DNA of 64,000 nt from Fertoeibacter niger (GTDB taxonomy: Bacteria > Pseudomonadota > Alphaproteobacteria > Rhodobacterales > Rhodobacteraceae). The translations under genes were made by a program, and so were the position numbers. The stretch lies in the NCBI RefSeq assembly GCF_009380135.2, contig NZ_WHUT02000007.1, positions 62,001 through 126,000 of the forward strand. The letters run 5' to 3'. Positions 25,855-48,725 of this stretch are shown here, one piece after another. The notes under the pieces were generated by a model. It searched no databases and was not told the origin of the DNA. It saw only the letters and a program-made list of their open reading frames with translations. Position 1 is the stretch's first letter; each line of letters starts with the position of its first letter.

Positions 25855-26931
25855 TCAGGCCAACGCCGCACCGTCCGCACCAAACAGGTGGCATTGCCCG
25901 GGGTCGGCGGTCAGGGCCACATCCGCCCCCGCGCCGATCACCTGCGCCCCGTCCATCTGCACCACCAGCGCCTCGGCCCCCGGCTGCGGCACATGCAGCA
26001 GGGTCAGCCCGCCCAGATGTTCGGCCACCTGCACCCGGCCCGTGAACATGGCGGGCCCGCCGGTCAGGCGCAGATGTTCGGGGCGAATGCCCAGCGTCAG
26101 CGCCTGACCGGCGCGCGCCACCAGCCGCCGTGGCAGCACCAGCGCCCCACCGCCCGGCAGCGCCAGCGCCGTGCCCGCCGCATCGCTGCCCTGCACCGTC
26201 ACCGGCAGAAAGTTCATCCGGGGCGAGCCGATGAAGCCCGCGACAAAGATGTTGGCCGGGTGGTGGTAAAGCTCCAGCGGCGGGCCGACCTGTGCGATAC
26301 GCCCGGCATTCATCACCACGATGCGGGTGGCCATGGTCATCGCCTCGATCTGGTCATGGGTCACATAGATCATGGTGGCGTTCAGTTCGCGGTGCAGGCG
26401 CATCAGTTCCAACCGCATGTTCACCCGCAAGGCGGCATCCAGATTCGACAGCGGCTCGTCGAACAAAAACACCTTGGGCTGGCGCACGATGGCCCGCCCG
26501 ATGGCCACCCTTTGCCGCTGCCCGCCCGACAGCGCCTTGGGGCGGCGGTCCAGCAGCGGGGTCAGTTGCAGCACATCGGCGGCGGCGCGCACGCGCTGGT
26601 CACGCTCTGCCGGGGGCACGCCCGCGATGCGCAGCGCGAAACCCATGTTTTCGGCCACCGTCATATGCGGGTAAAGCGCATAGCTTTGAAACACCATGGC
26701 CAGCCCCCGGCTGGAGGGGTCGACCTCGTTCGCGCGGGTGCCGTCGATGGTCAGCTCGCCCGCCGTGATTTCCTCCAGCCCCGCGATCATGCGCAACAGG
26801 GTGGATTTGCCGCAGCCGGACGGGCCGACAAACACCACGAAATCGCGGTCCTGCACGTCAAGGTCGATGCCCTTGATCACCTGCACCGCCCCGAAGGATT
26901 TCGTCAGCCCCGTGAGTTTCAGATCAGCCAT
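25855..26931 (-). CDS. CUT1-type sugar ABC transporter ATP-binding protein (MalK/UgpC family)
   Basis: A 358-residue ATPase. GPSGCGKST (Walker A), [16 protein letters not shown] (signature) and [13 protein letters not shown] (Walker B) are intact, and the C-terminal 120 residues form the MalK-type TOBE regulatory domain (GIRPEHLRL). One such ATPase energises two permeases and a binding protein, here those 7-9 kb upstream in the same operon. The start [14 protein letters not shown] is 8 bases inside the ROK gene's end, indicating coupling. It is the last gene of the ten-gene operon; a terminator follows. Confidence 0.95.
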
Positions 26932-27931
26932 CCTGCCGCCCCCCTTCCATTGCCCCGGCCCCATGGGGACCGGGCTGCATATCCTGCGCCGTGAACACCA
27001 GCCCCGCCGCGCCGATCAGCCCGGCGCGGCTGCCCAGCGCCGCCGGCACCACCGCCACATCGCGGTAGGCAGGCATGGCGCGGCGGTTGATCTCGGCCCT
27101 GATGCCGCCGATCAGCAGGTCAAAGGCATTCGCCAGCCCGCCGCCCAGCACGATCACATCGGGCGAATAAAGGTGCAAAAGGTTGGTGAACCCCCGGCCC
27201 AGCCAGCGCGCCTCATCCGCCACCAGACCTGCGGCCATGGCATCGCCCGCCCGGGCTGCACCCACCACCGACCGGGCGGTGATGCGTCCACCCTCGGCCT
27301 GCTGCGCGATCGCCTCTCCCCCGGGCCGTTTCGCCAGACGCCCGCCGTTGCGGCCCAGCGCGGTGCCCGAGGCCAGCGCCTCGAAACAGCCCACGGCCCC
27401 GCAAAAACAGCGCGGACCGCTGCCCGCGATGGTCATGTGGCCGATCTCGGCGGCCAGCCCCCGGCTGCCGTGAAATACCCGGCCCTGCGTGATCACCCCG
27501 CCGCCGATTCCGGTGGACACGGTGACAAACACCACCGTGCCCTGCCCGCGCCCCGCGCCAAAGCGCCATTCGCCCAGCGCCGCCGCATTGGCGTCATTCT
27601 CCAGCCAGACCGGCAGGCCCAGCCGTTCGCGCAACCGTGCGGCCAGCGGCACATTCTGCCAGCCATCCAGCGTGGGCGGCGCGATCATCAGCCCTGCCAG
27701 CGGGTCCAGCGGCCCCGGCGCGCCGATGCCCATGCCGATGGGCCGCAACCCCGGGCGCTCGGCCATCACCCGCCCGGCCAGCGCCGCAATCTGGGCGATC
27801 ACGGCCTCTGGCCCGGCACGGGCCCGCGTGGGTTCCGCCGCATGGGCCAGCACCCTGCCGTCACGGGCCACCAAGGCCGCGCGCAGATCCGTGCCCCCCA
27901 GATCGACGGCAAGGGCGGCCTCGGCTGTCAT
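26924..27931 (-). CDS. ROK-family sugar kinase
   Basis: A 335-residue protein. [13 protein letters not shown] (Asp10-Thr14) binds ATP phosphate, [13 protein letters not shown] carries the catalytic Asp, and [21 protein letters not shown] is the ROK zinc motif (CxCGxxGCxE). There is no N-terminal helix-turn-helix, so it is a kinase rather than a NagC-type repressor. ROK kinases include glucokinase, N-acetylmannosamine kinase and allose kinase. Its start overlaps the stop of the epimerase-like gene by 4 bases; a kinase-epimerase pair of this type resembles AlsK-AlsE of the allose pathway (inference). Confidence 0.88.
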
Positions 27932-28635
27932 GCCAAAGGCTCCATCCCGTGCAGCCAGCCGATACACGCCGCCAGATCGGGGTCGCCAAAGGCCAGCGAG
28001 CCCAGAACCACGGTTTCAGCCCCCGCGCGGCGCAGCAGGGGCACGGTTTCCTGCCTTATGCCGCCATCCGCCGCCAGAATGATGCGCTGCGGCATGGCGG
28101 CGATCAGCGCCCGCGCTTCGGCCAGCCGGTCAGCCGCCTCGGGGGCCAGCGACTGCCCCTTCACCCCGATGCGGGTGCCCAGCAGGGTGAACATCTGCAC
28201 CTGCGGCAGAAAGGGTGCGGCCACCTCCACCGGCGTTTCCAGCCGCAGCACCACGCCGCCCGCCACACCCGCAGCCTGCGCCAGCGCCAGCGCCCGCAGC
28301 CCGGCCTCGCCGGTTTCGGCATGGACCGAGATCAGGCTGGCCCCCGCGTCGATGAACTGGCGTGTCTGGTCCTCGACCACATCGGCCCCGACCATCAGAT
28401 GCACATGGATCGGCACGGCGGTCAGCTGCGCGATGCGGGCCACCAGATCGGGAAAGAATAGATAGCCGGGGGCAAAACGACCATCGGCCACGTCGATGTG
28501 GTGCAGATCGGCAAGGGGTTCGATCCGTTCCAGATCGCGCTGCATGTTCGCCAGATCGGCAGACCACAGCGAAAACTCGGCCAGCAGGCGGTGGCCGGGC
28601 AGGCGGGCAATGGCGGCAAGATGGTCGGGGGTCAT
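27928..28635 (-). CDS. Ribulose-phosphate 3-epimerase-like enzyme (possibly ketohexose-6-phosphate 3-epimerase)
   Basis: A 235-residue TIM barrel of the Rpe family. Metal-binding residues are in place: HHIDVADGRFAP (His46, Asp48), HVHLMV (His79) and ILAADGGI (Asp190). It differs from housekeeping Rpe by the segment GYLFFPDLV where Rpe has a NITFGP-like loop, and by an N-terminal extension, both of which suit an AlsE-like allulose-6-phosphate epimerase or another non-housekeeping role. Overlaps of 4 bases on both sides tie it to the ROK kinase and the hydrolase genes. Confidence 0.82.
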   Translation of the reverse strand: MTPDHLAAIARLPGHRLLAEFSLWSADLANMQRDLERIEPLADLHHIDVADGRFAPGYLFFPDLVARIAQLTAVPIHVHLMVGADVVEDQTRQFIDAGASLISVHAETGEAGLRALALAQAAGVAGGVVLRLETPVEVAAPFLPQVQMFTLLGTRIGVKGQSLAPEAADRLAEARALIAAMPQRIILAADGGIRQETVPLLRRAGAETVVLGSLAFGDPDLAACIGWLHGMEPLA

Positions 28636-29378
28636 GGCTGGGCCTTGGCAACAGAGGACAGGAAAGCGGCAAGCGCCGTGCGGATGGCAGCAAGATGCGC
28701 CTCGGGGGCGGTGGATTTGGGCGGCACTTCGGCCAGCCGCGCACCGGGAATGGCGGCGGCCAGTTGCCCGGCGGTGGCCAGCGGGTGAATCATGTCGCCG
28801 TCATTGGCCAGGATCAGGCATGGCAGGCGCAAGGCTGCGGCATCCCGTGGCGTGATGCCCGGACCATCGGCGGCAATATCGGCCAGCACCGTGGCAAATT
28901 CCGCGGCATCGGGGCGGTCGCAATAGGCCAGAAGCGAGGCCAGATTGTCGGGCGCATCGCGCGCCAGCCGCTGGCCCAAGGCGCTGGCGGCAAAGGTGGC
29001 GCGCGCCTTTGCGGGTGGCATGCGGCGCAGCAGGCCGGCGATGTCGCGCACCGGGGCCATGTTGGCGGGTGCCGGGTCAAACCCCCATGCCGGGCGTATC
29101 AGGACCAGACCCGCCACCCGTGCGGGATGCAGGCAGGCCAGCCGCAGCGCGATCGCGGCCCCCATGGAAATGCCCGCCGCCACAAAACGCGGAGCCTGCA
29201 CCGCCGCCAGCGCTTCATCGGCAAACATCGCCAGCGAAAACGGCCGCTCCGCCCCAAGGCCCGTGCCGCCATGGCCCCGGCTGTTGCGCGTCACGCGCTG
29301 CGCCGGTGTTTCGGGCCAGTGACGCATCACCTGCGCCTCATCCCCGCCAAGCCCGTGCTGGAACAGAACCACCGTCAC
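28632..29378 (-). CDS. Alpha/beta hydrolase
   Basis: A 248-residue hydrolase. The oxyanion start VVLFQHGLGGD, nucleophile elbow AAGISMGAA (Ser71), the acid in ILANDGDMIHPL and a C-terminal His near PPKSTAPEAH form a likely catalytic triad. It lacks a signal peptide, so it acts in the cytoplasm. The start is GTG, overlapping the stop of the sugar isomerase-like gene by 4 bases (GTGA). In this operon it might cleave an ester or a lactone formed by the neighbouring dehydrogenase; this is inference. Confidence 0.8.
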   Translation of the reverse strand: MTVVLFQHGLGGDEAQVMRHWPETPAQRVTRNSRGHGGTGLGAERPFSLAMFADEALAAVQAPRFVAAGISMGAAIALRLACLHPARVAGLVLIRPAWGFDPAPANMAPVRDIAGLLRRMPPAKARATFAASALGQRLARDAPDNLASLLAYCDRPDAAEFATVLADIAADGPGITPRDAAALRLPCLILANDGDMIHPLATAGQLAAAIPGARLAEVPPKSTAPEAHLAAIRTALAAFLSSVAKAQP

Positions 29379-30196
29379 AGCAGCGCCTTCAGATAACGCG
29401 CCACGCCCGGGGCCTCGGCAGCCTCCAGCCCGTGGGTGACAAGCGGGCCGTCAAACCCCGCGGCCCGCAACCCTGCGACAAAGGCCGGAAAATCGACGAT
29501 CCCCGCGCCAGCCGTGGCAAAACGGCCATCGGCCTGCCGGTCCTTGGCATGGGCCATGGCGATATGGCCCGCCGACCGGTCTATGGCCGCCGCCACGATG
29601 CGCCGGGCCTGATCCGGGGTCGCCTGTTCAAAGAGGTTAGCCGGGTCCAGCACGATTTTCAGGCGCGGCGAGGCCATCTCGCCGATCAGCCGCCGCGCAT
29701 CCGCCGCCGAGGTCACGATATTCGCCTGTTCAGGCTCGATGCCCAGCGTCACGCCTGCCGCCTCGGCCAAGGTCAGGGCCGCAGCCATCTCGCGCGCCAT
29801 GTCGGCCCATGCCGCCGGTTCGGCATTGGCGGGGTGATGCGCCCATTGGTCAGTCGCATGCCGCGTGCCGGTGCACAGCGTCACCAGCGGAATGCCAAGG
29901 CGGGCCGCGACCGCGATCACCACCCCCAGCCCCCCCAGCCCCGCCGCGCGCTGCGCCGGATCGGGATGCGCCATGTTGTAGGTGCCCGACAGCGCCGCCA
30001 GTTCCACGCCCGTGGCCGTGGCCGCAGCGGCGATACCGTCAAGCACCGCATCGGGCGGCAGGTCTGCGGGCAGCGACGGCAGCCCGGCACAGGCCAGATT
30101 GAACTGCACCGCGCCATAGCCCGCATCACGCGCAGCCCCCAGCACCGCCAGCGGCTGTGTGCCCGCAAAGGTCTTGGCAAAGATGCCCAGCCGCAT
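29375..30196 (-). CDS. Sugar phosphate isomerase/epimerase-like TIM barrel
   Basis: A 273-residue AP-endonuclease-2-like barrel. LGIFAKTFAGTQPLAVLGAARDAGYGAVQFN begins the barrel; EPEQANIV, LDPANLFE, AMAHAKD and the terminal VTHGLEA supply the usual Glu, Asp, His and Glu metal ligands. Family members isomerise or epimerise keto-sugars, and some split 3-keto-glycosides. Its ATG shares one base with the stop of the Gfo/Idh gene (TGATG). I chose this start because the longer frame upstream lies wholly inside that gene. Confidence 0.85.
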   Translation of the reverse strand: MRLGIFAKTFAGTQPLAVLGAARDAGYGAVQFNLACAGLPSLPADLPPDAVLDGIAAAATATGVELAALSGTYNMAHPDPAQRAAGLGGLGVVIAVAARLGIPLVTLCTGTRHATDQWAHHPANAEPAAWADMAREMAAALTLAEAAGVTLGIEPEQANIVTSAADARRLIGEMASPRLKIVLDPANLFEQATPDQARRIVAAAIDRSAGHIAMAHAKDRQADGRFATAGAGIVDFPAFVAGLRAAGFDGPLVTHGLEAAEAPGVARYLKALL

Positions 30197-31272
30197 CACA
30201 CCGCCCCCGTGACGGAGGCCAGCGCAACCCGCCCGCCGCTTTCCACAGACCGGGCAATGGCCACCATGGCGCGGATCGACGCGATGCCATCCTGCACATC
30301 GGCCCCGCGCAGCGGCGCGCCGGTCAGCGCGGCATCGGCCAACCCCTCCAGCTGACGGCGGAAGAAATGGCCGTCGGCCCCCAGCGGCTTGCGGATCGTC
30401 GCATCGCTTTCGTGGAAAATCTCGACTTCCGCCGCGCGGAAATACCATGGGTTGAAGATTTTCGCCGTGACTGACCCGTTTTCACCGTAAAGCTGAAACC
30501 CCTCGTGCCAGTCCATCCGCACGGCCACCGTCAGATCCAGATGGCCCAGGGCACCGCTGGCAAATTCGGTCTCGACGAACCAGCAATAGGCGCCGAACCG
30601 TTCCAGCAGGCGGGCACGCACGGCCACGATCTCGCCGCACAGGAAGCGGGCCGTGTCCACCAGATGCGAGCCATGGGCCAGCATGAAATACTGCCGCAGG
30701 TCGGCCTTGGGGTTGCCTGCGGGCTTGCGCGCCAGCGCGCTTGTCACCGGCAGAGGCTGAATGGCGTCGGTGTTGGTGTAGCGGTGGGTGCTGTCGCAAT
30801 ACCAGGCCTTCAGCGCCAGCACCTGCCCCATGTCCTGCTGCACGAAATCGCGGGCGGCCTCCAGCGCCGGGTCAAAGCGCTTCATGTGCCCCACCTGCAA
30901 CAGGCAGCCCGAGGTGGCCACGGCATCGGCCAGCGCCTGCCCCTCTTCGACCGACACGCCGATGGGTTTTTCGCACAGCACATGCTTGCCCGCCTGCAAC
31001 GCCTTGATCGCCATAGGCACATGCCAGGCGTCGGATGTGGCGATGATCACCGCCTCCAGATCCGGGTCGGCCAGCATCATGTCGTAATCGGCAAAGGCCT
31101 TTTGCGGGGCATGGGTGGCCTGCATCCGCGCCAGCAGGTCAGGTGCCGTATCGCAGATGGCGTAAAGATCGGCGTTGCGCGCCTTGGTGCAGGATTCCAG
31201 ATGGGCGAATTGTGCGATCGGGCCACAGCCCAGTACGCCGACGCGCAGGCGTCGGTCTTGCTTGCGGATCAT
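30196..31272 (-). CDS. Gfo/Idh/MocA-family sugar dehydrogenase
   Basis: A 358-residue oxidoreductase. The NAD(P) Rossmann start RVGVLGCGPIAQFAHLES, the conserved EKPIG (residues about 99-103) after AGKHVLC, and the C-terminal alpha/beta domain match the family; the catalytic His lies in the MLAHGSHLVDTARFL region. Such enzymes oxidise a ring hydroxyl of a sugar or cyclitol, often C3 or C2. AGGAG lies seven bases upstream of the start. It sits between two isomerase-like genes, a pairing seen in inositol and 3-keto-glycoside pathways. Confidence 0.9.
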   Translation of the reverse strand: MIRKQDRRLRVGVLGCGPIAQFAHLESCTKARNADLYAICDTAPDLLARMQATHAPQKAFADYDMMLADPDLEAVIIATSDAWHVPMAIKALQAGKHVLCEKPIGVSVEEGQALADAVATSGCLLQVGHMKRFDPALEAARDFVQQDMGQVLALKAWYCDSTHRYTNTDAIQPLPVTSALARKPAGNPKADLRQYFMLAHGSHLVDTARFLCGEIVAVRARLLERFGAYCWFVETEFASGALGHLDLTVAVRMDWHEGFQLYGENGSVTAKIFNPWYFRAAEVEIFHESDATIRKPLGADGHFFRRQLEGLADAALTGAPLRGADVQDGIASIRAMVAIARSVESGGRVALASVTGAV

Positions 31273-31282
31273 GTCGTTTCTC

Positions 31283-32101
31283 CTAAAGCCCGAGACGGCG
31301 AAGCGTGGCGCGGTTGGTTTTCACGGCGGCGGCAGGATCGGCTGCGGCGGTGGCGGATTCCTCCTCCAGCACCAGCCAGCCGTTGAACTGCGGGGCAGCC
31401 GTGGCGGCAGCGATGACGGCCGGCGTGTCGCACACACCGTCGCCCAGCATGGCCCACTGGCCCTGCGCATCCACATCCTTGAGGTGGACATAGCGGATGC
31501 GCGCGGCATGGCTGGCCAGAGTATCACCCATGTCCTGCCCGCCGCGCAGGATATGGCCGGTGTCGGGCACCCAGCCCACGCCGGGATCCAGCAGGGCAAA
31601 GATGCGGTCATAATCGGCGCGGTCGAACAGCAGCGTGTTGTGATGCGAGGACGGATGCACCGCCACCTGCACGCCCGCCGCCTGCCCGATCTCGGCCGCG
31701 CGGTTGTAAACCTCTGCCGCCACGGCGAAATGCGCATCGCGTGGCCCGTCTGTCACCACGGTGGCCGACCCCATCGACACCAGCGCGCCGGGGAAATGTG
31801 CGGCATAGCCGACCCAGCGTTTCGCAGCCTCCAGATCCGCCGCGATGTGGTCGGGGCGGGCAAAGCCGCTGTCGGACCCAAAGGCAAAGGCCACCAGCCG
31901 CAGCCCCGCCGCATCCAGCGCGCGGCCAAAGGCGGCGGGATCAGTGGCGTAATGGCCGATCATCGTGTCGGTGATCTCGATCCCGGCATAGCCACCGTCG
32001 GCAATCGCGCGGATCAGGTCATCCGGCCCGCCGGTGAAACGGGGGCCCAGCATTTCCCAGGTGAAGGTCTGGCAGGCGATCTGCAACTTTGTCATGGTCA
32101 T
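31283..32101 (-). CDS. IolE/MocC-like sugar isomerase or dehydratase-type TIM barrel
   Basis: A 272-residue barrel of the xylose-isomerase-like superfamily. QIACQTFTWEMLGPRF at the start and VAVHPSSHHNTLLFD, GWVPDTGHILRGG, YVHLKDVD and WLVLEEES near the C-terminus carry the metal-binding Glu/Asp/His set. The pattern resembles inosose dehydratase IolE and MocC. The start MTMTKLQ overlaps the permease stop by 4 bases; six bases downstream a second ATG is possible. It differs clearly from the other isomerase gene in the operon, so two different steps are likely. Confidence 0.85.
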   Translation of the reverse strand: MTMTKLQIACQTFTWEMLGPRFTGGPDDLIRAIADGGYAGIEITDTMIGHYATDPAAFGRALDAAGLRLVAFAFGSDSGFARPDHIAADLEAAKRWVGYAAHFPGALVSMGSATVVTDGPRDAHFAVAAEVYNRAAEIGQAAGVQVAVHPSSHHNTLLFDRADYDRIFALLDPGVGWVPDTGHILRGGQDMGDTLASHAARIRYVHLKDVDAQGQWAMLGDGVCDTPAVIAAATAAPQFNGWLVLEEESATAAADPAAAVKTNRATLRRLGL

Positions 32102-32934
32102 TCCTTGATGCCGCCCTGGGTCAGGCCTTCGATGATGTGGCGCTGGAAGAACAGCACCAGCAGGATCAACGGCAGCGTCACCACGGCAGAGGCCGCCGCA
32201 ATGTCGCCCCAGGGCACATAGTAAAGGTTGGTGAAATTGGCGATTCCGACCGGAATCGTCTGGGTGCGTTCGTCCGAGGTGAAGGCCAGCGCAAAGAGAA
32301 ACTCGTTCCAGGCCGTGATGAAGGCCAAAAGGCCGGTCGTCACCAGACCCGGGCCCGACATCGGCAGGATCACATACCACAGCAGCCCGGGGGTCGAGAC
32401 GCCATCCATCCGCGCGGCCTCGTCGATCTCGCGCGGCAGCGTTTCGAAATAGCCGAACATCACCCAGGTGACGATGGGCAGGCACAGAGCCAGATAGGTC
32501 AGCACCAGCACCGCATAGGTATCCAGCAGCCCCAGCGCCGAGGCCAGCAGGTAAAGCGGCCCCACCAGCGCGATCTGCGGAAACATCGACACCGACAGGA
32601 TCAGGAACAGGATGCCATAACGCCCCCTGATCCGCAGCCGCGACAGCGCAAAGGCCGCAAGTGACCCCACCGTCAGGCACAAAAGCGTGGTGCAGGCCGA
32701 CACGATGGCCGAGTTTATCATGTAGCGGTGCAGGCCCTTTTCAACGAAGGCGTTGAAATAATGCACGAATGTCACCGGATCGGGGATCAGCCGCGGCGTG
32801 CCTGATGTCAGCGCCTTGTCCATCTGCAAAGAGGTCGAGAATTGCCAGATGAACGGCCCGACCGACCAGATCAGGATCAGCGCCGCCGCCAGCCCGATCA
32901 GGGCGCGGCGCAGGGGCGTGCGGCGGCCGGTCAT
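32098..32934 (-). CDS. CUT1 sugar ABC transporter permease (MalG-like)
   Basis: A 278-residue membrane protein with six hydrophobic segments. The coupling-helix EAA motif reads EAARMDGVSTPGLLWYVILPMSGPG. The N-terminal LIWSVGPFIWQFSTSL and the C-terminal FFQRHIIEGLTQGGIKE are typical of MalG-type subunits, the last binding into the ATPase dimer. It overlaps both neighbours by 4 bases. The frame upstream of the ATG is a shadow of the other permease gene. Confidence 0.93.
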   Translation of the reverse strand: MTGRRTPLRRALIGLAAALILIWSVGPFIWQFSTSLQMDKALTSGTPRLIPDPVTFVHYFNAFVEKGLHRYMINSAIVSACTTLLCLTVGSLAAFALSRLRIRGRYGILFLILSVSMFPQIALVGPLYLLASALGLLDTYAVLVLTYLALCLPIVTWVMFGYFETLPREIDEAARMDGVSTPGLLWYVILPMSGPGLVTTGLLAFITAWNEFLFALAFTSDERTQTIPVGIANFTNLYYVPWGDIAAASAVVTLPLILLVLFFQRHIIEGLTQGGIKE

Positions 32935-33860
32935 GACAGCCTCCGCAACTGGCTGACCATGAAGATCACGAAGACCAACGCGATCAGCCCCTCGGTGATG
33001 AACATCGCGGTGGATATGGTGGAGCCGTAGCCGAATTGCAGCGTGGCAAACAGCACCTTGTAAGACAGGGTAGACAGGGTTTCGGTGCTGTCGCCCGGCC
33101 CGCCGCCGGTCAGCACATAAACCAGATCGAACACGCGAAACGCATCCAGCGCCCGCAGCATGCCCGCGATCAGCAGCGTGGGCAGCAGCAGCGGCAGGCG
33201 CACATGCCAGAAGGTCGCCCAGGCCTTTGCCCCGTCCATCCGCGCCGCCTCGGTCAGCGAGGCCGGGATGGTCTGCAACCCGGTCAGCAGCAGCAACGCC
33301 ATGAAGGGCGTGGTTTTCCACACATCGGCGATGATGATGGTCCACATCGCGGTGTCGGGCGAGCCATACCAGTTCACGTTCTGGTCGATCAGCCCCAGTT
33401 GCAGCAACACATAGTTGATCACCCCGAACTGCCCGTCGAACAGCCAGCCGAACATCTTTGACGTGACTACCGTGGGCATCGCCCAGGGGATCAGCATCGC
33501 CGCGCGCACGATGCCCCGGCCCGGAAACGCCTCCACCAGCACCAGCGCCATGGCCAGACCGATCAGCGTTTCCAGCAGGGTGGAAACGGCGGTGAACCAC
33601 ATCGTATGGCCCCAGGCCTTCCAGAACAGCGCATCACCCATCAGGCGGGCGTAATTGTCGAAACCCGTGAAATCATCTGTGCGCGAAATCAGCGAGGTAT
33701 TGGTGAACGACAGGTAGATGCCATTCACAATCGGATAAAGCGCCACCGACCCTAGTGCGACAAAGGCCGGAAGCAGCAGCAGCCAGGGCCAGAGGGTGCC
33801 GCGAAGCACCCTCCCTGTCCCACCCGGCGGGCGCGGTGCTGGATGAGACGCCTCTGCCAT
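32931..33860 (-). CDS. CUT1 sugar ABC transporter permease (MalF/UgpA-like)
   Basis: A 309-residue membrane protein with six hydrophobic segments, starting with LWPWLLLLPAFVALGSVALYPIVNGIYLSF. The EAA motif reads EAARMDGAKAWATFWHVRLPLLLP. It follows the binding-protein gene with only three bases between them, unlike the other transporters in this window, which have a hairpin there. It pairs with the MalG-like subunit next to it. Confidence 0.93.
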   Translation of the reverse strand: MAEASHPAPRPPGGTGRVLRGTLWPWLLLLPAFVALGSVALYPIVNGIYLSFTNTSLISRTDDFTGFDNYARLMGDALFWKAWGHTMWFTAVSTLLETLIGLAMALVLVEAFPGRGIVRAAMLIPWAMPTVVTSKMFGWLFDGQFGVINYVLLQLGLIDQNVNWYGSPDTAMWTIIIADVWKTTPFMALLLLTGLQTIPASLTEAARMDGAKAWATFWHVRLPLLLPTLLIAGMLRALDAFRVFDLVYVLTGGGPGDSTETLSTLSYKVLFATLQFGYGSTISTAMFITEGLIALVFVIFMVSQLRRLS

Positions 33861-33863
33861 GGG

Positions 33864-35192
33864 TCAGGCCACGATCCGGTTGATCTCGGTCGCCAGCGCG
33901 TCCATTTCGGCCTGCACATTGCCCGAAACGAAGGCCTTGGAGATGCCCGATTGCAGCGCCAGCGACACTTCGGAATATTTGGGCGTGATCGGGCGGGCGG
34001 TGGCCCCGGTGAACACGCTTTGCAGGCTTGCCATGAAGGGCTGTTCGGCCTTGATCGTGGCATCGTCGAACAGGTTGGCGCGGGTGGGGGCCAGACCGAA
34101 GTTCAGCGCAATGCGCTGCTGCACCTCGGCCGACGACAGCCAGGTCAGGAATTCCACCGCGGCCTCGCGGTACTTTGAATTGGCGTTGATGCCCAGCTGA
34201 TAGCCGCCCAGACAGGCCGCGCTCTTGCCACCATCAAAGGCGGGCAGCGGGGCGACACCCACCTTGTCCACCACATCCGACGCCGCAGGGTCTTGCGCGA
34301 TCGGATAGACATAGGACCAGTTGCGCATGAACGTGCCCCGGCCCGCCGTGAACGGCATGCGCGAGGGTTCCTCATCCCAGCTCAGCACGTTCTGCGGGCT
34401 GATCTTGGTGGTAGCGATCGTGTCATACAGGAACTGGATCGCGGCCACCGCCTCGGGCTGGTTGACCAGCGCGCTCTTGCCATCGGCGGCAAGGATCGCG
34501 CCGTTGTTCGAGGTGATGATTTCCACCGCGTCGCAAACCAGCACTTCGGCCTGTTTGCCCTGCCACAGATAGCCGAATTCGGCGTCGCCCGCACCTTGGG
34601 CGGCGGCGGCCAGCGTGGCCATCTGATCCCAGGTGGTCGGCACCTCGGCACCCATCTTTTCCAGAATGTCGCGGCGGTAATACAGCATGCCCGAATCCAT
34701 GAACCAGGGCAGCGCGGTCAACTGGTTGTTGTAGGTGCAGGCGGCCACGGTGCCGCTGAAGTAATCCTTGGTATCGGGGAAATATTCGCCCAGCGGCAGC
34801 GCCCATCCGGCCTCGGCGAAGCCGGCGATCCAGATCACATCCTGGCTGAACACATCGGGGGTGCCGTCAGCGCGGGCCAGCTGCTGCACAAGCCCCTGAA
34901 ACACCTCGGTCGAAGAGCTGGGCGGCGGCAGTTCGATAAAGCGCACAAAGATGCGGTCCTGCGATTCGTTGAACGTGTCGCACAGGTCGCCAAAGCTTTC
35001 CTTGCCGAAGAAGGCGGCGCTGGCAAAGGAGATCTCGACCCGGCTTTGCGCCCGGGCGCGGGTGACGCCAAGGCCCGCCATGCCGGCAGCACCAAAGGCG
35101 GCAGAGGTTTGCAGGAACTGGCGGCGGCTGGTCATGCTGCGGTCGGCCAGTTTGACGGGGCCGTGAACCGGCCCTTTGGCTGTATGTGTCAT
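33864..35192 (-). CDS. CUT1 sugar ABC transporter substrate-binding protein, Tat-exported
   Basis: A 442-residue periplasmic protein. The N-terminus bears the twin-arginine motif SRRQFLQ, then the hydrophobic AAFGAAGMAGLGV and a cleavage site near RARA. The mature part is a family-1 solute-binding fold (VEISFASAAFFGKESFGD, GRGTFMRNWSYVYP). The start at the outer ATG is supported by GGGAGG six bases upstream; an inner ATG 57 bases later directly before the Tat motif is possible. Export in folded form by Tat is unusual but known for sugar-binding proteins. It heads the ten-gene operon. Confidence 0.92.
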   Translation of the reverse strand: MTHTAKGPVHGPVKLADRSMTSRRQFLQTSAAFGAAGMAGLGVTRARAQSRVEISFASAAFFGKESFGDLCDTFNESQDRIFVRFIELPPPSSSTEVFQGLVQQLARADGTPDVFSQDVIWIAGFAEAGWALPLGEYFPDTKDYFSGTVAACTYNNQLTALPWFMDSGMLYYRRDILEKMGAEVPTTWDQMATLAAAAQGAGDAEFGYLWQGKQAEVLVCDAVEIITSNNGAILAADGKSALVNQPEAVAAIQFLYDTIATTKISPQNVLSWDEEPSRMPFTAGRGTFMRNWSYVYPIAQDPAASDVVDKVGVAPLPAFDGGKSAACLGGYQLGINANSKYREAAVEFLTWLSSAEVQQRIALNFGLAPTRANLFDDATIKAEQPFMASLQSVFTGATARPITPKYSEVSLALQSGISKAFVSGNVQAEMDALATEINRIVA

Positions 35193-35359: not shown

Positions 35360-36514
35360 ATGAAAATGACAACAAAATCAACACGCAAACTGGGCATCGG
35401 CGTTATCGGATGCGGCAATATCGCAATGACCTATCTGCGCAATGCCGCGCTGTTTCCGGGCGTGCGCCTGGTGGCCTGCGCCGATCTGAACGCGGAACTT
35501 GCGGCACAGCGGGCGGCGGAATACGGGCTGCGGGCCGTGCCGGTCGATACGCTGCTGGCCGACCCAGAGGTGGATCTGGTGCTGAACCTCACGATTCCCG
35601 CTGCGCATTTCGACGTCTCGCACAGCGCGCTGACCGCCGGAAAGCATGTGTTCACTGAAAAGCCGCTGGCCGTGACCGCCGATCTGGGGCGCAGGCTGGT
35701 GGAGGAGGCCGAGGCGCGCGGCCTGCTGATCGGTTCGGCGCCCGATACGTTTCTGGGCGCGGCGGGGCGGAAGGCGCGGCGGCTGGTGGATGGCGGGGCG
35801 ATCGGCCGGGTTGTGACCGGCACCGCCTTCATGATGGGGCGCGGGATGGAACACTGGCACCCCAACCCGCAGTTCTATTACCAGCCGGGCGGCGGGCCGG
35901 TGCTGGATATGGGGCCCTATTACCTGACGATGCTGGTCAACCTGCTGGGGCCGGTGGCGCGGGTTCAGGCGGTGGCGACATCCGGGCAGACCGAACGCCT
36001 GATCACGGCGGAGGGGCCGTTCAAGGGCACCCGCTTTGCCGTGGGCACGCCGACCAACGTGATGTCGCTGCTGCAATTCGCGGGCGGGGCCACGGTGACA
36101 TTCGGCGCGTCGTGGGATGTGTATCGCCATTCCATCCCGCCGATCGAATTGCATGGCACCATGGGCTCGCTGCGCCTGCCCGACCCCGACACATTCGGCG
36201 GCACCGTCAGCCTGTCAGACCATGGCGCGCATTGGCAGGATTTTGCCAGCGAGCCGCAGCTTTATGGCGCGCTGAATTTTCCCTTCGCGGCACCAGACCG
36301 CGCGAATTACCGCATGCTGGGCGTGGCCGATCTGGCGGCGGCACTGGCCACGGGCCGCGCGCCCCGGGCCTCGGGGCGGCTGGCCCTGCATGTGCTGGAG
36401 GTGATGGAGGCGGTGCTGCGTGCAGGCGAAACCGGCAGCGCCCAGACCATCGGCGGCGACACCGCGCAGCCGCAGCCGCTGGGCGATGACGAAGCGCAGG
36501 CGCTGCTGGAATGA
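35360..36514 (+). CDS. Second Gfo/Idh/MocA-family sugar dehydrogenase
   Basis: A 384-residue oxidoreductase with GIGVIGCGNIAMTYLRNAALFPGVRLVACAD as NAD(P) domain start and the family EKPLA motif after AGKHVFT. GGGPVLDMGPYYLTML carries the region where the catalytic acid/base residues lie. The sequence is closer to the glucose-fructose-oxidoreductase-like group annotated in glycoside-degrading loci than to the dehydrogenase in the operon on the other strand. Its stop overlaps the hydrolase gene by 4 bases (ATGA). Confidence 0.9.
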   Translation: MKMTTKSTRKLGIGVIGCGNIAMTYLRNAALFPGVRLVACADLNAELAAQRAAEYGLRAVPVDTLLADPEVDLVLNLTIPAAHFDVSHSALTAGKHVFTEKPLAVTADLGRRLVEEAEARGLLIGSAPDTFLGAAGRKARRLVDGGAIGRVVTGTAFMMGRGMEHWHPNPQFYYQPGGGPVLDMGPYYLTMLVNLLGPVARVQAVATSGQTERLITAEGPFKGTRFAVGTPTNVMSLLQFAGGATVTFGASWDVYRHSIPPIELHGTMGSLRLPDPDTFGGTVSLSDHGAHWQDFASEPQLYGALNFPFAAPDRANYRMLGVADLAAALATGRAPRASGRLALHVLEVMEAVLRAGETGSAQTIGGDTAQPQPLGDDEAQALLE

Positions 36515-37434
36515 CCGGGCTCGACCCCTCGGCCCGGGACTTGCTGGCAAGCGCCGCCCCGGGCCGCCCGTTTGAGGATGGCACGGTGGCCGAGGCGCGC
36601 GCCGCCTATGCCGCGTCATGGCAGGCGGCGCTGGGGCCGCTGGCCCCGGTGGCGGAAAGCCGCACTCTTTGGCATGACGGCCTGCGCCTGCGGCTGTGGC
36701 GCGGCGTCACGGCACCCGCCACCGGGGCCCGCGCGCTGCTGTATCTGCACGGCGGCGGCTGGGTGATCGGCAGCCCCGAAAGCCACGAGGATATCTGCCG
36801 CACTCTGGCCCACAGCGCGGGCGCGGTGGTAATCAGCCCGGACTATCGCCTTGCCCCCGAACACCACTTTCCATCTGCATTGGAGGATGGGGCCGCCGCA
36901 TTGCGCTGGATGGCGGATCAGGCGGGTAGGCTTGGCATTGACCCCGCCCGGCTGGCCGTGGGCGGCGACAGCGCGGGTGGCAATCTGGCGGCGGTTTTGG
37001 CGCTGATGGCGCGCGACGGGGCATTGCCGCCACTGGCAGCACAACTGCTGTTCTACCCCAACACCGATGCGGGGCAGACCCATGCCAGCTATCGGCGCTT
37101 TGCCAGCGGCCATGGGCTGACCGCCCGCACGATGCGCTGGTTCCGCGATCTGTATCTGACCGATCCGTCACAGGCCGACGACTGGCGCGTGTCGCCCTTG
37201 CGCGCGCCCAGCCTTCAGGGCGTGGCCCCGGCCTTTGTCGCGCTGGCGGGACATGACATTTTGCACGACGAGGGGGCCGCCTATGCCTCCCGGTTGCGGG
37301 GCGAGTCCCGTGCAGAGGTGCAGACATGGCCCGGACAGTTGCACGGCTTTGTGTCACAGGGCGCGCGCATCCCCGAGGCGGCAGAGGCGCTTGCAGCGGC
37401 AGCGGCGGCATGGCTGACGTTGGATCAAGCCTGA
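36511..37434 (+). CDS. Alpha/beta hydrolase, hormone-sensitive-lipase type (carboxylesterase)
   Basis: A 307-residue hydrolase. HGGGWVIG (80-87) is the HSL oxyanion motif, GGDSAGGNLA holds the nucleophile Ser154, and the acid and base lie near GHDILHDEG and GQLHGFV. It has no signal peptide. Coupled to a Gfo/Idh dehydrogenase gene, it could remove acyl groups from a decorated sugar (for instance acetyl esters) before or after oxidation; this is inference. Confidence 0.9.
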   Translation: MTGLDPSARDLLASAAPGRPFEDGTVAEARAAYAASWQAALGPLAPVAESRTLWHDGLRLRLWRGVTAPATGARALLYLHGGGWVIGSPESHEDICRTLAHSAGAVVISPDYRLAPEHHFPSALEDGAAALRWMADQAGRLGIDPARLAVGGDSAGGNLAAVLALMARDGALPPLAAQLLFYPNTDAGQTHASYRRFASGHGLTARTMRWFRDLYLTDPSQADDWRVSPLRAPSLQGVAPAFVALAGHDILHDEGAAYASRLRGESRAEVQTWPGQLHGFVSQGARIPEAAEALAAAAAAWLTLDQA

Positions 37435-37437
37435 GGG

Positions 37438-38475
37438 TCAGGCCGAATCCCGCATCACCAGTGTCGCATCCAGGATCACGCTTTCCGCCGCACTTTCGCG
37501 GCCTTCGTCGGCATCGTCCATCCGCGCCAGCAGCATTTCCACGCTGCGGCCCGCCATCGCGCTGACATCCTGCGCCATGGTTGTCAGCGGCGGGCAGGTA
37601 TATCGGCTGAGCGGGTGGTCGTCATGCCCGGCGATGCGCAGATCGCTGTCGCGCCGCCGCCCCACCTTGCGCCCCGCGGCAAAGGCCGCCGCCATCGCGC
37701 CAAAGGCCATGCGGTCATTGGCACACAGCACCGTCTGCCCCGGCAGGCTGCCGCGCGCCAGCATCGCCTGCATCTGTTCATACCCCGCACGCTCGAAGTC
37801 CCAGCAATAGCGGGCCGGGCAGGCGATCACCTCGGGCGCATGGCCCTGCACCTGCATGGCCGAAATGTAACTGTTCAACCGCTCGGGCGAGTTGTTGTTC
37901 ACATGCGGAATGTCAAAGAACAGCGGCGGTTCGCCCGACCGGCACAGATATTCGACAATCACCGACATGCTCTGCCCGTTGTTGTTGCCGACAAACGGCA
38001 TGCCGGGGCCGATATGGCTGTCGAAACACACCACGGGTATCGCCTCGGTCAGCCGGTCGAAGGTGCCGCGCTCGCTGTCATGGCCCAGGGGCGCCACAAC
38101 CGCCCCCGCCACCTTCAGCGCCAGCAGCGTGCGCACGGCCTCTGCCTCCAGATCGGCGCGGCTGTGCGTGGCGATGAGGATCGGCCAATAGCCATCGTCG
38201 CGCAGGCGCAGCTCGATCCGGCCCACCACCTCGGCATAGAACGGGTCCGACATCGAGGGCACGATGATGCCGATATGCCGGGTGCGCTTTCGGTTCAGGT
38301 TCCGCGCGAACAGGTTCGGCTGGTAATCCGACGCCGCCAGCGCCAGTTCGATCCGTTCGCGGGTCGAGGCTTTCACGCTGCCCGGATCATCGAAGTATTT
38401 TGACAGCGTGGGCCGCGACACGCCGCAGGCGCGCGCGAAATCATCCATGGTCTTGTGGCTGGCCTGTCTGGTCAT
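37438..38475 (-). CDS. LacI-family transcriptional regulator
   Basis: A 345-residue regulator. The N-terminal helix-turn-helix reads TMDDFARACGVSRPTLSKYFDDPGSV with hinge YQPNLFARNLNRKRTRHIGI, followed by a periplasmic-binding-protein-like effector domain. The start giving MTRQASHKTMDD is favoured since it fits the usual length before the DNA-binding helix, although no strong ribosome-binding site is visible. It is convergent with the hydrolase and divergent from the kinase-GatZ fusion gene. It probably controls the fusion gene and the sugar operon (inference). Confidence 0.9.
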   Translation of the reverse strand: MTRQASHKTMDDFARACGVSRPTLSKYFDDPGSVKASTRERIELALAASDYQPNLFARNLNRKRTRHIGIIVPSMSDPFYAEVVGRIELRLRDDGYWPILIATHSRADLEAEAVRTLLALKVAGAVVAPLGHDSERGTFDRLTEAIPVVCFDSHIGPGMPFVGNNNGQSMSVIVEYLCRSGEPPLFFDIPHVNNNSPERLNSYISAMQVQGHAPEVIACPARYCWDFERAGYEQMQAMLARGSLPGQTVLCANDRMAFGAMAAAFAAGRKVGRRRDSDLRIAGHDDHPLSRYTCPPLTTMAQDVSAMAGRSVEMLLARMDDADEGRESAAESVILDATLVMRDSA

Positions 38476-38649
38476 CCCGTATCTGCTTTCCGCGCTTATC
38501 CCGCTGCCCCGCAGTAGCACAGCCGCAGTTGCCCGAAGCAACTGGTTTTTGCTTACGCTGTCAGTATTTTTCTATACGCATGTAAATTTATTGTTTGACG
38601 CATTAAATTTTGCGCCCTAGCTGTTGCGCTGGGATACAGGGAGGCGGGC
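38476..38649. promoter_or_regulatory. Divergent promoter region of LacI gene and kinase-GatZ fusion gene
   Basis: The gap is markedly A/T-rich around 38575-38615. TTGACG (38595-38600) is a fair -35 box for the fusion gene and AGGGAGGCGGGC precedes its ATG. No perfect LacI-type palindrome was found. Confidence 0.45.
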
Positions 38650-40857
38650 ATGAAAACGCTGGTCAGCGCAGGCGAGATCGTGGTGGAGGTGATGGCCAGG
38701 CACCGCGGCCAAAGCCTGCTAGCTGCCGGCCCGCTGACCGGGCCTTACCCGTCAGGGGCGCCCGCCATCTTTCTGGCGCAGGCGGCGGCGTTGGGCCAAC
38801 CCTGCGGCATGATCGGCGCGGTGGGCGATGATGCTTTCGGTGCGCTGAACCTTGACCGGCTGCGCGGGTTGGGGGTGGATGTGTCGGCGGTGGCCTGCTT
38901 GCCGGGCCGGGCCACCGGCAGCGCCTTTGTCAGCTACCGCGCCGATGGCAGCCGGCAATTCGTGTTCAACATCCGCCACAGTGCTGCGGCAGAACTGGTG
39001 CAGGGGCCAGAGGCGCGGGCGCTGCTGGGCCGGGCGGACCATCTGCATGTGATGGGGTCATCGCTGTTTTCCGATGCGGCTGTGGCCATGGCGATGGCGG
39101 GCATTGCGGCGGTGAAGGGCCGGGGCGGCACGGTATCGTTCGACCCCAACATCCGGCCCGAGATGATGACAGAGCCGATGCGCGTCGCCTTGGCCGATGT
39201 GCTGGCCGCGACGGATCTGTTCCTGCCCAGCGGTGACGAGATTTTCCTGTTCGCCCCGCCGGGCATGACCGATGCCGATGCGGCCGCCGCAGACCTGCTG
39301 GCGCGAGGCATCAGGGCCGTGGTGCTGAAATGCGGCATACAAGGCGCGGTCTATTTCGACGCGACGCAGCGCATTGCGCAGCCGGCGTTTGCCGTGGCCG
39401 AGGTGGACCCGACCGGCGCGGGCGATTGCTTTGGCGGGGCTTTCGTCGCGCTGTGGCTGCGCGGCGCGGCACCTGCACAGGCCTTGCAGGTGGCGGCGGC
39501 CTGCGGCGCGCTGGCCGTCACCCGCCAAGGGCCGATGGAGGGTATCTGCACCCTGCCGCATGCAGAGGCGTTTCTGGCAACGCAGCATGGTGACGGGGCT
39601 GCGGCGTGGCTGGCTGCCTTTCCCGCGCTGCGGCAGGCGGGGGCGCGGCCCGGCATTGCATCTGTCTGCTCGGCGCATCCCCGGGTGATCGCGGCGGCGC
39701 TGCGGCACGGGCGCGACCGCGACGGCCCGGTGCTGATCGAGGCGACCTGCAATCAGGTGAACCATCAGGGCGGCTATACCGGGCAGACACCGGCCATGTT
39801 CCGCGACGGCGTGCTGGCGCTGGCGCGGCAGGCGGGCTTTCCGGCAGACCGGCTGATATTGGGCGGCGACCATCTGGGGCCAAACCCCTGGCGGCACCTG
39901 CCCGCGGCACAGGCCATGGCCGAGGCGGCGCGGATGATGGCGGATTATGCGCAGGCGGGTTTTGCCAAGCTGCATCTGGATACCAGCATGGCCTGCGCCG
40001 ATGACCCCCTGCCCCTGCCGCTGGACCTGATTGCCACCCGCGCTGCCGAACTGGCGCAGGTGGCCGAGGCCAACGCCAACCCCGCCCGCCTGCCGGTCTA
40101 TGTCATCGGGTCCGAAGTGCCGGTGCCGGGTGGCGCGGCCGAACCGCTGCACGCGCTGGCCGTCACCACACCCGCCAGTGCCGCCGCCACCCTGGCCGCG
40201 CACCGGCGGGCCTTTGCCGCGCGCGGGCTGGACGCGGCGTTTCGCCGTGTGATCGGCATCGTGGTGCAGCCGGGCGTGGAATTCGGCAGCACCGATGTGG
40301 CGGTCTATGCCCCCGATGCGGCGCGCGCATTGGTGCAGACCCCCCTGCCCGGCGTGGTGTTCGAGGCGCATTCGACCGACTACCAGCCAACCGACGCTTT
40401 GCGGGCGCTGGTTTCCGATGGATTTGCCATTCTCAAGGTCGGGCCGTGGCTGACCTTCGCCCTGCGGGAAACGCTGTATGGTCTGGCGGCGATTGCCGCA
40501 GACATGCTGCCCGATCCGCCCGAACCGCTGCCGCAGGTGATGGAGCGTCTGATGCTGGCCGATCCGGCGCATTGGGCGGCCTATTACCCCGGCGATGCGG
40601 TGGACCAGCGGCTGCAACGCCATGCGTCCTACAGCGACCGCATCCGCTATTACTGGCCGCAGCCGGAGGCCGAAGGCGCGGTGTCAGCCCTGCTGGCCGC
40701 CCTTGGCCCGCGCCCCATTCCGCGCCCGCTGATCAGCCGCCATCTGGGCCTGCTGGATGGCTTCGCAGCCATGCACCCCGCCTGCACCGCCGACATGCTG
40801 CTGGAGGCGGGCATCGCCCGGGTGCTGGGGATTTATGCTGCGGCAACAGCGCCGTAA
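38650..40857 (+). CDS. Fusion of PfkB-family sugar kinase and GatZ/KbaZ-type protein (tagatose kinase + tagatose-6-phosphate 4-epimerase-like)
   Basis: A single 735-residue reading frame with two complete domains. Residues 1 to about 312 are a PfkB kinase: TVSFDPNIRPE, then VDPTGAGDCFGGAF with catalytic Asp259. Residues about 318-735 match GatZ/KbaZ, once called the non-catalytic tagatose-bisphosphate aldolase subunit: SVCSAHPRVIAAAL, VLIEATCNQVNHQGGYTG, ILGGDHLGPNPW (401-414), VQPGVEFGSTDV and the C-terminal RIRYYWP. In Agrobacterium a stand-alone GatZ homologue is known to act as D-tagatose 6-phosphate 4-epimerase beside a tagatose kinase. Here both activities would be on one chain, turning D-tagatose into fructose 6-phosphate (inference). 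No GatY/KbaY aldolase lies nearby. Confidence 0.88.
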   Translation: MKTLVSAGEIVVEVMARHRGQSLLAAGPLTGPYPSGAPAIFLAQAAALGQPCGMIGAVGDDAFGALNLDRLRGLGVDVSAVACLPGRATGSAFVSYRADGSRQFVFNIRHSAAAELVQGPEARALLGRADHLHVMGSSLFSDAAVAMAMAGIAAVKGRGGTVSFDPNIRPEMMTEPMRVALADVLAATDLFLPSGDEIFLFAPPGMTDADAAAADLLARGIRAVVLKCGIQGAVYFDATQRIAQPAFAVAEVDPTGAGDCFGGAFVALWLRGAAPAQALQVAAACGALAVTRQGPMEGICTLPHAEAFLATQHGDGAAAWLAAFPALRQAGARPGIASVCSAHPRVIAAALRHGRDRDGPVLIEATCNQVNHQGGYTGQTPAMFRDGVLALARQAGFPADRLILGGDHLGPNPWRHLPAAQAMAEAARMMADYAQAGFAKLHLDTSMACADDPLPLPLDLIATRAAELAQVAEANANPARLPVYVIGSEVPVPGGAAEPLHALAVTTPASAAATLAAHRRAFAARGLDAAFRRVIGIVVQPGVEFGSTDVAVYAPDAARALVQTPLPGVVFEAHSTDYQPTDALRALVSDGFAILKVGPWLTFALRETLYGLAAIAADMLPDPPEPLPQVMERLMLADPAHWAAYYPGDAVDQRLQRHASYSDRIRYYWPQPEAEGAVSALLAALGPRPIPRPLISRHLGLLDGFAAMHPACTADMLLEAGIARVLGIYAAATAP

Positions 40858-40865
40858 CCGCGCCG

Positions 40866-41561
40866 TCAGTTGATCCGCCCGCTGTCGGGTGCCGTGCCGT
40901 GCTGGATGCGCCGCTCCAGCGCGGCGCGGTCCAGCACCTCGATCGCCCCCTTGCGCAGGGCGATGATGTTGTCATCACGCAGCACACCAAGCGTGCGGTT
41001 GATCGTCTGGCGCGAACAGCCCACCACATTGGCAAGATAGGCCTGGCTCTGGGTGATCAGGGGTTTTTTCTTGCTGGACAACTGGCTGAGGTAGCTACAG
41101 ATTTTCTGGTCAACCGTGTAGAACTGATCCACCGATTTCAGCTTGTTGTCGCGCACCAGCCGGTCATAGAAGATGCCCGCCAGATTGCGCACGAACACGG
41201 GTGATTTCAGCTGTTCAAAGATCAGCGGCGTGGCGCAGAACAGCAGCGCGGTGTTGGGCAGGGCGGTGCAGGTGGCGGCGCAGGGCTTGTCGGCAATCGC
41301 CTCGACCTCGCCCACCACTTCGCAGGGGCCGGCCAGATGGATGATGGTCTTGTGCCCGTCCTGGCTGTGATAGGCCAGCTCGATCGTGCCATGTGCCACC
41401 AGCAGCAGCCCCGACGTGGTTTCACCCTGCACCAGCACGGGCGTCGCCGCTTCATAGAACCGCAGCGCGCATTGGTCGATAAAACCAACCTTCTGGTCAT
41501 CAGGCAGATCGTTCAACAGGCTGCATTTCAGCAGATGCGGGTAGCGGAGGCTGTTTTTCAC
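40866..41561 (-). CDS. Crp/Fnr-family transcriptional regulator
   Basis: A 231-residue regulator: a cyclic-nucleotide-binding-like beta barrel (VLVQGETTSGLLLVAHGTIELAY, HLAGPCEVVGEVEAI) and a C-terminal winged helix with ITQSQAYLANVVGCSRQTINRTLGVLR. The N-terminal cysteine cluster of true Fnr is missing, so oxygen sensing by an iron-sulfur cluster is unlikely. I choose the GTG start that overlaps the cytochrome gene stop by 4 bases (GTGA), with GGGGGA upstream; an ATG 33 bases earlier is the alternative. It is the fourth gene of the molybdenum-hydroxylase operon and may autoregulate it (inference). Confidence 0.87.
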   Translation of the reverse strand: MKNSLRYPHLLKCSLLNDLPDDQKVGFIDQCALRFYEAATPVLVQGETTSGLLLVAHGTIELAYHSQDGHKTIIHLAGPCEVVGEVEAIADKPCAATCTALPNTALLFCATPLIFEQLKSPVFVRNLAGIFYDRLVRDNKLKSVDQFYTVDQKICSYLSQLSSKKKPLITQSQAYLANVVGCSRQTINRTLGVLRDDNIIALRKGAIEVLDRAALERRIQHGTAPDSGRIN

Positions 41562-42496
41562 TCGGCGTCCCCCGGTATCGGCTCCATCTGGCACATGGCC
41601 TGGCCGGGATCATCGCAGCAGGCGCGCAGCTGATCAACCGACTGCGCGTAGATTTGATTCCACGCAGCCTCGGTCTGGCCAAAGCCGGGCGGCATGGCAT
41701 GCGACAGCGGGTAAGTGGACGCCAGCGCATTGGCCCCCGGCGGAATGTCGCGGCCCGTCATCCACAGCGTAAGGCTGTTGCAGGTCTGGTCAATGCCGAC
41801 GCGGTGGCAGCCCACGCAGGTGTTGTCACGCGGCGCGATGGATTGCGTGGGCCAGTCACCGAAACCGAACTCGGGGGCCACATGGGCATAGGGGCCGAAC
41901 GGGTTCACCGGCACATGCGCCCAGACCTGCCCCACAAAGGCCGAGAACATGAACGGGTCATTGTCATGGCAATTGCCGCAGCCATCCTGCACCACCGCCT
42001 CGGGCGTCTGCCAGAAACTGTCGTCTGTGGCCTCGGTGGGCGAGGGCACGGCGGCCCCGTTCACCGGCGCATCCGTGCCTTTGGCCTGAAACCAGCAGGT
42101 CGCCCCGGTGGCCGGGTTGTGGGCGATCACGTCGATCTCGTCAAAATCCATGCTGTCGGCGCTGCGGATCATCTTCTGGCGGCACATGACAGACACCTGA
42201 TGTGTGTCGGTGCTCAGCGACAGGATGCGCGAGTAAGGCACGCATTGGCCGTCAGAGGTTGACCCGTTGTTCAAGAGCGCCGGGCGGTCGCATGTCATGC
42301 CGGGTGTGTAGGTGGCAGGCGTCTGGCCATCCACCGTCACCGGCACCGGCACGCCATCGGCGCAGGAAAACGCGGGCAGCGGCCCCACGGCGGCCTGACA
42401 GGCGGCGGCATATTCGGCGTTGCTGGTCTGGGCCTGCGCCCCGCCCGCCATCAACATCAGCGCCAGTGTCAAGTGGATCAGTGCGGGGCGGATCAT
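41558..42496 (-). CDS. Exported diheme cytochrome c-like protein
   Basis: A 312-residue periplasmic protein with a Sec signal (MIRPALIHLTLALMLMAGGA, cleavage near AQAQ). Two heme-binding motifs, CGNCH (Cys173-His177) and CVGCH (Cys227-His231), and several further Cys residues are seen. The rest of the protein does not match a cytochrome family I know well. Placed between the 2Fe-2S subunit and a regulator with 4-base overlaps, it is the likely electron acceptor passing electrons from the hydroxylase to the respiratory chain. Confidence 0.82.
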   Translation of the reverse strand: MIRPALIHLTLALMLMAGGAQAQTSNAEYAAACQAAVGPLPAFSCADGVPVPVTVDGQTPATYTPGMTCDRPALLNNGSTSDGQCVPYSRILSLSTDTHQVSVMCRQKMIRSADSMDFDEIDVIAHNPATGATCWFQAKGTDAPVNGAAVPSPTEATDDSFWQTPEAVVQDGCGNCHDNDPFMFSAFVGQVWAHVPVNPFGPYAHVAPEFGFGDWPTQSIAPRDNTCVGCHRVGIDQTCNSLTLWMTGRDIPPGANALASTYPLSHAMPPGFGQTEAAWNQIYAQSVDQLRACCDDPGQAMCQMEPIPGDAE

Positions 42497-48716: not shown

Positions 48717-48725
48717 GTCATCCTC

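Follow-up and report, generated by a model that had tools for sequence, protein, structure and literature searches.

The window (the whole stretch of 64,000 nucleotides from Fertoeibacter niger that was analysed) carries a single ATG-started open reading frame in which a PfkB-family sugar kinase is joined to a GatZ-type epimerase (Table 1). The PfkB domain (PF00294) covers residues 2-297 with 144.4 bits (gathering cut-off 25.8), and the GatZ_KbaZ-like domain (PF08013) covers residues 327-733 with 517.6 bits (gathering cut-off 26.7). Both Pfam domains are near full-length and the junction is open, which agrees with the first-pass annotation, where one 735-residue frame joining two complete domains had been described; the catalytic Asp that it placed in the GAGD motif of the kinase was located at residue 259. 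The frame is uninterrupted and has no usual start codon near the N-terminus of GatZ, as expected of a kinase and an epimerase made as one chain. The AlphaFold2 model, built with 46 aligned rows, has a mean pLDDT of 93.2 and a pTM of 0.81. In this model the junction is short and mostly helical, without a long disordered linker (pLDDT 73 for residues 311-320 and 83 for residues 321-330), and the lowest block (pLDDT 56) is the loop 491-500, directly after Glu489. In Foldseek searches, the structural matches were 3txv and 2fiq for the GatZ half, and 3k9e and 3iq0 for the kinase half. A chance open frame is excluded, because both halves have homologues in the same frame, the mean pLDDT is high, and both halves have structural matches.

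Table 1. Features of the fused gene and of its surroundings (window positions)
Feature	Position	Strand	Remarks
MalK/UgpC-type ABC transporter ATPase	25855..26964	-	conserved cluster
ROK-family sugar kinase	26924..27931	-	conserved cluster
Ribulose-phosphate / allulose-6-phosphate 3-epimerase family protein (C3 epimerase)	27928..28635	-	both models below cut-off
Alpha/beta hydrolase	28632..29378	-	conserved cluster
Xylose-isomerase-like TIM barrel 2	29375..30163	-	weak similarity to ketose 3-epimerases
Gfo/Idh/MocA dehydrogenase 2	30196..31272	-	conserved cluster
Xylose-isomerase-like TIM barrel 1	31283..32080	-	weakly IolE-like
Sugar ABC transporter permease 2	32098..32940	-	conserved cluster
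Sugar ABC transporter permease 1	32931..33860	-	conserved cluster
Sugar ABC transporter solute-binding protein	33864..35192	-	conserved cluster
Gfo/Idh/MocA dehydrogenase 1 (Gfo1)	35360..36514	+	conserved cluster
Abhydrolase_3 esterase-like protein	36511..37434	+	conserved cluster
LacI-family regulator, divergent from the fusion	37438..38541	-	TTG-started frame; in-frame ATG at 38475; Pfam scan of 37438-38481
Putative LacI-family operator	38580..38601	+	degenerate, 17/22 of the L036 palindrome
Fused PfkB-family (tagatose-kinase-like) / GatZ-type 4-epimerase gene	38650..40857	+	735 aa
Kinase domain, ~residues 1-318	38650..39603	+	Asp259 in GAGD
Junction, ~residues 313-327	39586..39630	+	no stop and no in-frame ATG/GTG/TTG
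GatZ/KbaZ domain, residues 327-735	39628..40854	+	C340, E364, D407, H408, E489, H574, K596

The fused gene belongs to a sugar cluster of 15 genes (14 in the window because of the fusion), which runs from MalK (25855) to GatZ and spans window positions 25855-40857. The gene order is identical in Rhizobium sp. ICMP 5592 (L160) and Mesorhizobium temperatum (L163), with 55-86% identity. Five other regions that were fetched are incomplete: L161, L164, and L166 are cut off by the end of the stretch or of the contig, the transporter is missing from L162 and L165, L165 is also without TIM barrel 1 and Gfo1, L161 is without the esterase-like gene, and the permeases in L164 and L166 are just 33-36% identical. 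No zinc or short-chain polyol dehydrogenase was found among the cluster proteins scanned; Gfo/Idh and TIM-barrel proteins are present instead. Gfo/Idh and TIM-barrel enzymes are found paired in pathways for 3-keto-glycosides and levoglucosan, and levoglucosan dehydrogenase appears as a weak match for each of the two Gfo/Idh proteins, which is a lead rather than a test. The conservation of the cluster points to a rare-sugar pathway in rhizobia. Large molybdenum-hydroxylase-like and [2Fe-2S]-like frames, recognised by eye from their translations, lie just past the cluster (42493-46196), and a second sugar locus (47338-49787, minus strand) contains an RbsK-type kinase, a fucose-mutarotase/RbsD-like protein, and an ABC-transporter ATPase-like frame.

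For the kinase half, the best NCBIfam model is TagKinase (NF049991), which scores 381.7 bits against 129.5 bits for the next model. Tagatose kinase, the identity given by the first-pass annotation, is by far the best-scoring model, with a score below the curated equivalog cut-off of 420. Two fusion models match the kinase half only, and weakly: NF047869 with 45.5 bits (cut-off 600) and NF041633 with 48.0 bits (cut-off 700). Among seven relatives whose kinases were scanned against TagKinase, three of the same cluster (398-416 bits) and one other (412 bits) are below 420, and three are above. Since both halves of the fused protein score just under the NCBI curated cut-offs, we infer the sugar from family similarity, by which D-tagatose is most likely the leading substrate, though both equivalog thresholds are missed. 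The three scanned split kinases of the cluster also lie below the cut-off, so the cluster kinase may prefer another ketohexose. It is conceivable, if rather unlikely, that the kinase acts mainly on D-allulose, D-sorbose, or D-fructose in partnership with the C3 epimerase of the cluster, and that several D-ketohexose 6-phosphates are thereby led to fructose 6-phosphate. The low scores of the window kinase and of its three cluster relatives fit such a role, as does the RPE/AlsE-family C3 epimerase itself, which is conserved (69-73% identical in 13 of the 14 genomes searched) and adjoins the cluster in the fetched regions. However, TagKinase is far ahead of every other NCBIfam model, and the C3 epimerase scores higher as a ribulose-phosphate epimerase (139 bits) than as an allulose-6-phosphate epimerase (100 bits), with both scores below cut-off.

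The GatZ half, scored alone, is best matched by the NCBIfam model agaZ_gatZ (TIGR02810) with 552.0 bits, below the curated equivalog cut-off of 568.8, and the split relatives L029 and L070 reach 628.9 and 632.1 bits with the same model. The active-site residues of E. coli GatZ (C20, E44, D87, H88, E171, H257, and K279) were proposed from modelling, not mutagenesis (PMC11907403). All seven have equivalents in the window protein (Table 1), comprising the Asp base, the His/Glu/His metal site, and the Cys, Glu, and Lys expected of a GatZ-type 4-epimerase; catalytic residues are thus present in this domain too. The same seven are invariant across all 132 GatZ domains that were aligned, a set in which some genes are repeated. 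In E. coli, deletion and expression tests support C4-epimerase activity of GatZ/KbaZ: tagatose production was abolished by gatZ deletion, gatZ alone failed to restore it, and gatZ or kbaZ together with the phosphatase HxpA did (PMC11907403).

The genome assembly, which is 99.07% complete in 33 contigs, carries one GatZ and one gene of the class II aldolase family (PF01116), the latter on a contig other than that of the fusion. This aldolase scores best as a class II FBA (203 bits, cut-off 423), followed by GatY (168 bits, cut-off 383) and tag_bisphos_ald (146 bits, cut-off 443.55), and its neighbours look IolB-like and PfkB-like by eye, suggesting an inositol-pathway aldolase. The sole PF01116 gene of the genome is therefore below every cut-off shown, those of the GatY/KbaY models included. 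The first-pass annotation had argued that no GatY/KbaY aldolase is nearby, that an aldolase role is unlikely, and that GatZ acts as a 4-epimerase, and these points gain weight from the genome-wide result and from the E. coli tests reported in PMC11907403. That the GatZ domain is merely a stabilising subunit of tagatose-1,6-bisphosphate aldolase, as its family names in Pfam and NCBIfam would have it and as the partial similarity of the PF01116 gene to GatY and tag_bisphos_ald might suggest, is very improbable given the other contig, the higher FBA score, and the neighbours of that gene, together with the E. coli results.

At the junction, the frame stays open codon by codon, without a stop, from the PMEG motif of the kinase to the SVCSAH start of GatZ, and the codons between the ATG of PMEG and the GTG after SAHPR include no in-frame ATG, GTG, or TTG. 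The gap from PMEG to CSAH is 132 nt in the window, with GatZ in frame 0, and 137-158 nt in the 14 closest cluster relatives (L022-L031 and L033-L036), with GatZ in frame 2; in this motif-pair comparison, loci without a PMEG/CSAH pair gave no row, and the kinase tails of L139 and L140 were misread. In L025, L029, and L033, the three relatives compared by coordinates, the kinase stop overlaps the GatZ start. Judging from these sequences, the join would be explained most simply by a small net deletion in which the stop and the start were both lost. An error of one base does not account for the junction: with a single-base indel, either the kinase would continue out of frame, or GatZ would have no usual start codon (ATG, GTG, or TTG). 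Although the join is read from the assembly of one draft genome, the only one of its genus examined, a sequencing or assembly error that turned two normal genes into one is hardly credible, because GatZ is in another frame in the 14 relatives, the window lacks both the stop and the start, and independent fusions occur in two Actinomycetes genomes.

The kinase and GatZ are normally separate proteins, as the first-pass annotation had stated for known pathways. A scan of the genome collection confirmed 589 loci, and the 80 listed include 59 adjacent kinase-GatZ pairs, of which 58 are split and one (L018) is fused; the split pairs have GatZ in frame 2 (47), frame 1 (four), or frame 0 (seven), and the remaining 21 of the 80 listed loci gave no kinase match. 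In the family sample, a strong TagKinase match was found in 38 of 394 genomes. Thirty TagKinase loci from this sample comprise 28 with a separate adjacent GatZ, the window, and L107, which is without GatZ in a short locus. The other eight genomes comprise G001 with a split pair (L008), G331 without a fusion, and six whose kinase frames of 308-341 codons are too short to be fusions. With the whole protein as query, the window was the sole stop-free match over both domains among 292 genomes of the order (51 with a match), 385 of the class (four with a match), and 398 of the phylum (46 with a match); the samples overlap, and scoring was limited to the two or three best candidates of each genome.

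The search for two-domain homologues that the first-pass annotation had proposed did yield fusions, in two Actinomycetes genomes, and the window fusion is therefore not unique, which goes beyond that annotation. Among 395 genomes of the class of L018, its protein was matched in three and was fused in two, namely its own genome (a MAG) and G1595. The L018 fusion is 816 codons from stop to stop and that of G1595 (L182) is 762 codons. A further GatZ-type frame, without a fused kinase, was observed on the contig of the G1595 fusion (L183, 7349-8875). Three other candidates were rejected: G332 has a kinase frame of 757 codons, but its GatZ is encoded by a distinct gene that overlaps it; G331 has a kinase frame of 769 codons, but the 16 kb around the kinase gave no GatZ match, its GatZ being on another contig; in G602, both domains are spanned and a TGA lies between them. 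The fusion in the window is real, rare, and recurrent, and it joins two enzymes that act one after the other in a known route.

Trees were built from 88 kinases and 88 GatZ domains, which remained from 107 and 132 rows after duplicates, short rows, and unpaired rows were removed. Both halves of the window protein nest in the clade of the cluster (15 rows; support 98/94 and 100/98), and the window and L018 are already apart in these trees. One clade of the window, L018, and L182 was rejected by a subsequent AU test (p 0.005 for the kinase and 0.002 for GatZ) on 40 kinase and 41 GatZ rows that were chosen, with the constrained group chosen for being fused. As a common origin of the three is rejected, the fusion arose at least twice; the tree test gave no support for L018 and L182 as sisters, and there may have been a third event. 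Long branches limit the certainty of this analysis. The fused state is derived from a widespread arrangement in which the two genes are adjacent, a point absent from the first-pass annotation. The mean identity between the window and Mesorhizobium is 63% for both the kinase and GatZ, compared with 68% (kinase) and 66% (GatZ) between Mesorhizobium and Rhizobium, and neighbouring genes drop similarly (Gfo1 75.8 versus 82.5, LacI 65.7 versus 70.7, some genes resting on one to three loci). Since the kinase and GatZ diverge in line with the neighbouring cluster genes, there is no sign of decay of the fused gene.

A putative LacI-family operator precedes the fused gene; neither this site nor the conserved sugar cluster figures in the first-pass annotation. 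In 15 relatives (the 14 closest and L079), the best 22-mer resembling the L036 site, a perfect palindrome with 9-bp arms, shares 15-22 of the 22 positions with it and is situated some 63-124 nt upstream of the kinase start; the weak matches in L079 (15) and L033 (17) mean little, since choosing the best match guarantees one per relative. With a matrix made from the sites of these 15 relatives, excluding the window, the window site at 38580 scores 25.7, whereas ten mononucleotide shuffles of the window reach 10.2 at best. An inverted-repeat search of the window reported another pair (38584-38593/38601-38610) rather than the operator palindrome. A LacI-family match (E 1e-20) is present somewhere in 56 of 92 relative loci, and a LacI-family repressor would be predicted to bind the putative operator. 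A shared operator before the ABC/Gfo1 pair is not supported in the window, where the best site (35246) scores 9.1, within the range of the shuffles. Operator-like sites were seen just before Gfo1 in L164 (4269, 11.9 bits) and L166 (3375, 15.8 bits), a hint that the other arm of the cluster may be under the same repressor. A sigma-70 scan of 38450-41000 found no promoter.

Taken together, the gene probably encodes one bifunctional protein, a ketohexokinase (most likely for D-tagatose) and C4 epimerase, which would have arisen by deletion between adjacent genes of the cluster. The activities of both halves are predicted from their domains and residues. The N-terminal PfkB domain would phosphorylate a D-ketohexose, most likely D-tagatose, at O6, and the C-terminal GatZ domain, a metal-dependent TIM barrel, would then invert C4 of the product to give fructose 6-phosphate. 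If the modelled E. coli GatZ is a guide, the inversion may proceed by retro-aldol and aldol steps, with Asp407 as the base and the metal held by His408, Glu489, and His574. A small deletion would have erased the stop and start between the two genes in this cluster, which Rhizobium and Mesorhizobium also have. That the same pair has been fused more than once, in distant phyla, indicates that the two steps are closely linked in function. Substrate channelling between the kinase and the epimerase is speculative. We regard it as doubtful that the fusions arose independently in Alphaproteobacteria and Actinomycetes because joined active sites help, with tagatose 6-phosphate handed directly from kinase to epimerase, and that together with the C3 epimerase the protein forms a hub through which D-tagatose, D-sorbose, D-allulose, and their precursors, derived from a sugar oxidised by the Gfo/Idh enzymes, reach fructose 6-phosphate by C3 and C4 epimerisation. 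A one-chain kinase/4-epimerase would allow the role of GatZ as an enzyme or as an aldolase chaperone to be tested without a partner aldolase, and a natural one would serve as a compact tool in tagatose chemistry.

No tagatose kinase-GatZ fusion was recognised in the titles and abstract openings of the PMC open-licence papers listed by the literature searches. The L018 and L182 fusions have the same domain order as the window protein in one uninterrupted frame, while they differ in their separate origin, longer linker, and neighbours (Gfo/Idh, SDR, and ROK proteins at L018; Zn-ADH, AKR, and LacI proteins at L182, with domains read from ten frames picked by length and GC pattern). The kinase/aldolase fusion NF047869 and the KHG/KDPG aldolase/kinase fusion NF041633 also join a PfkB kinase to a pathway enzyme, but the partner is an aldolase, not GatZ. 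Among known structures, the kinase half is 46% identical to the PfkB kinase 3iq0/3k9e (E. coli 'putative ribokinase II'; target TM 0.93-0.94), and the GatZ half is 44% identical to 2fiq, which its residue numbering suggests to be E. coli GatZ, and 53% identical to 3txv of S. meliloti (target TM 0.92-0.95); unlike the window protein, all of these are stand-alone proteins, and the entry title of 3iq0/3k9e names no tested substrate. In the N. hansenii locus L058, a kinase and a 4-epimerase are likewise predicted side by side, but as separate genes accompanied by a sorbitol dehydrogenase. The known two-protein route uses the same two enzyme families and the same expected chemistry to fructose 6-phosphate in separate proteins, whereas in the window they form one chain, encoded in a cluster that also carries genes for Gfo/Idh and TIM-barrel enzymes.
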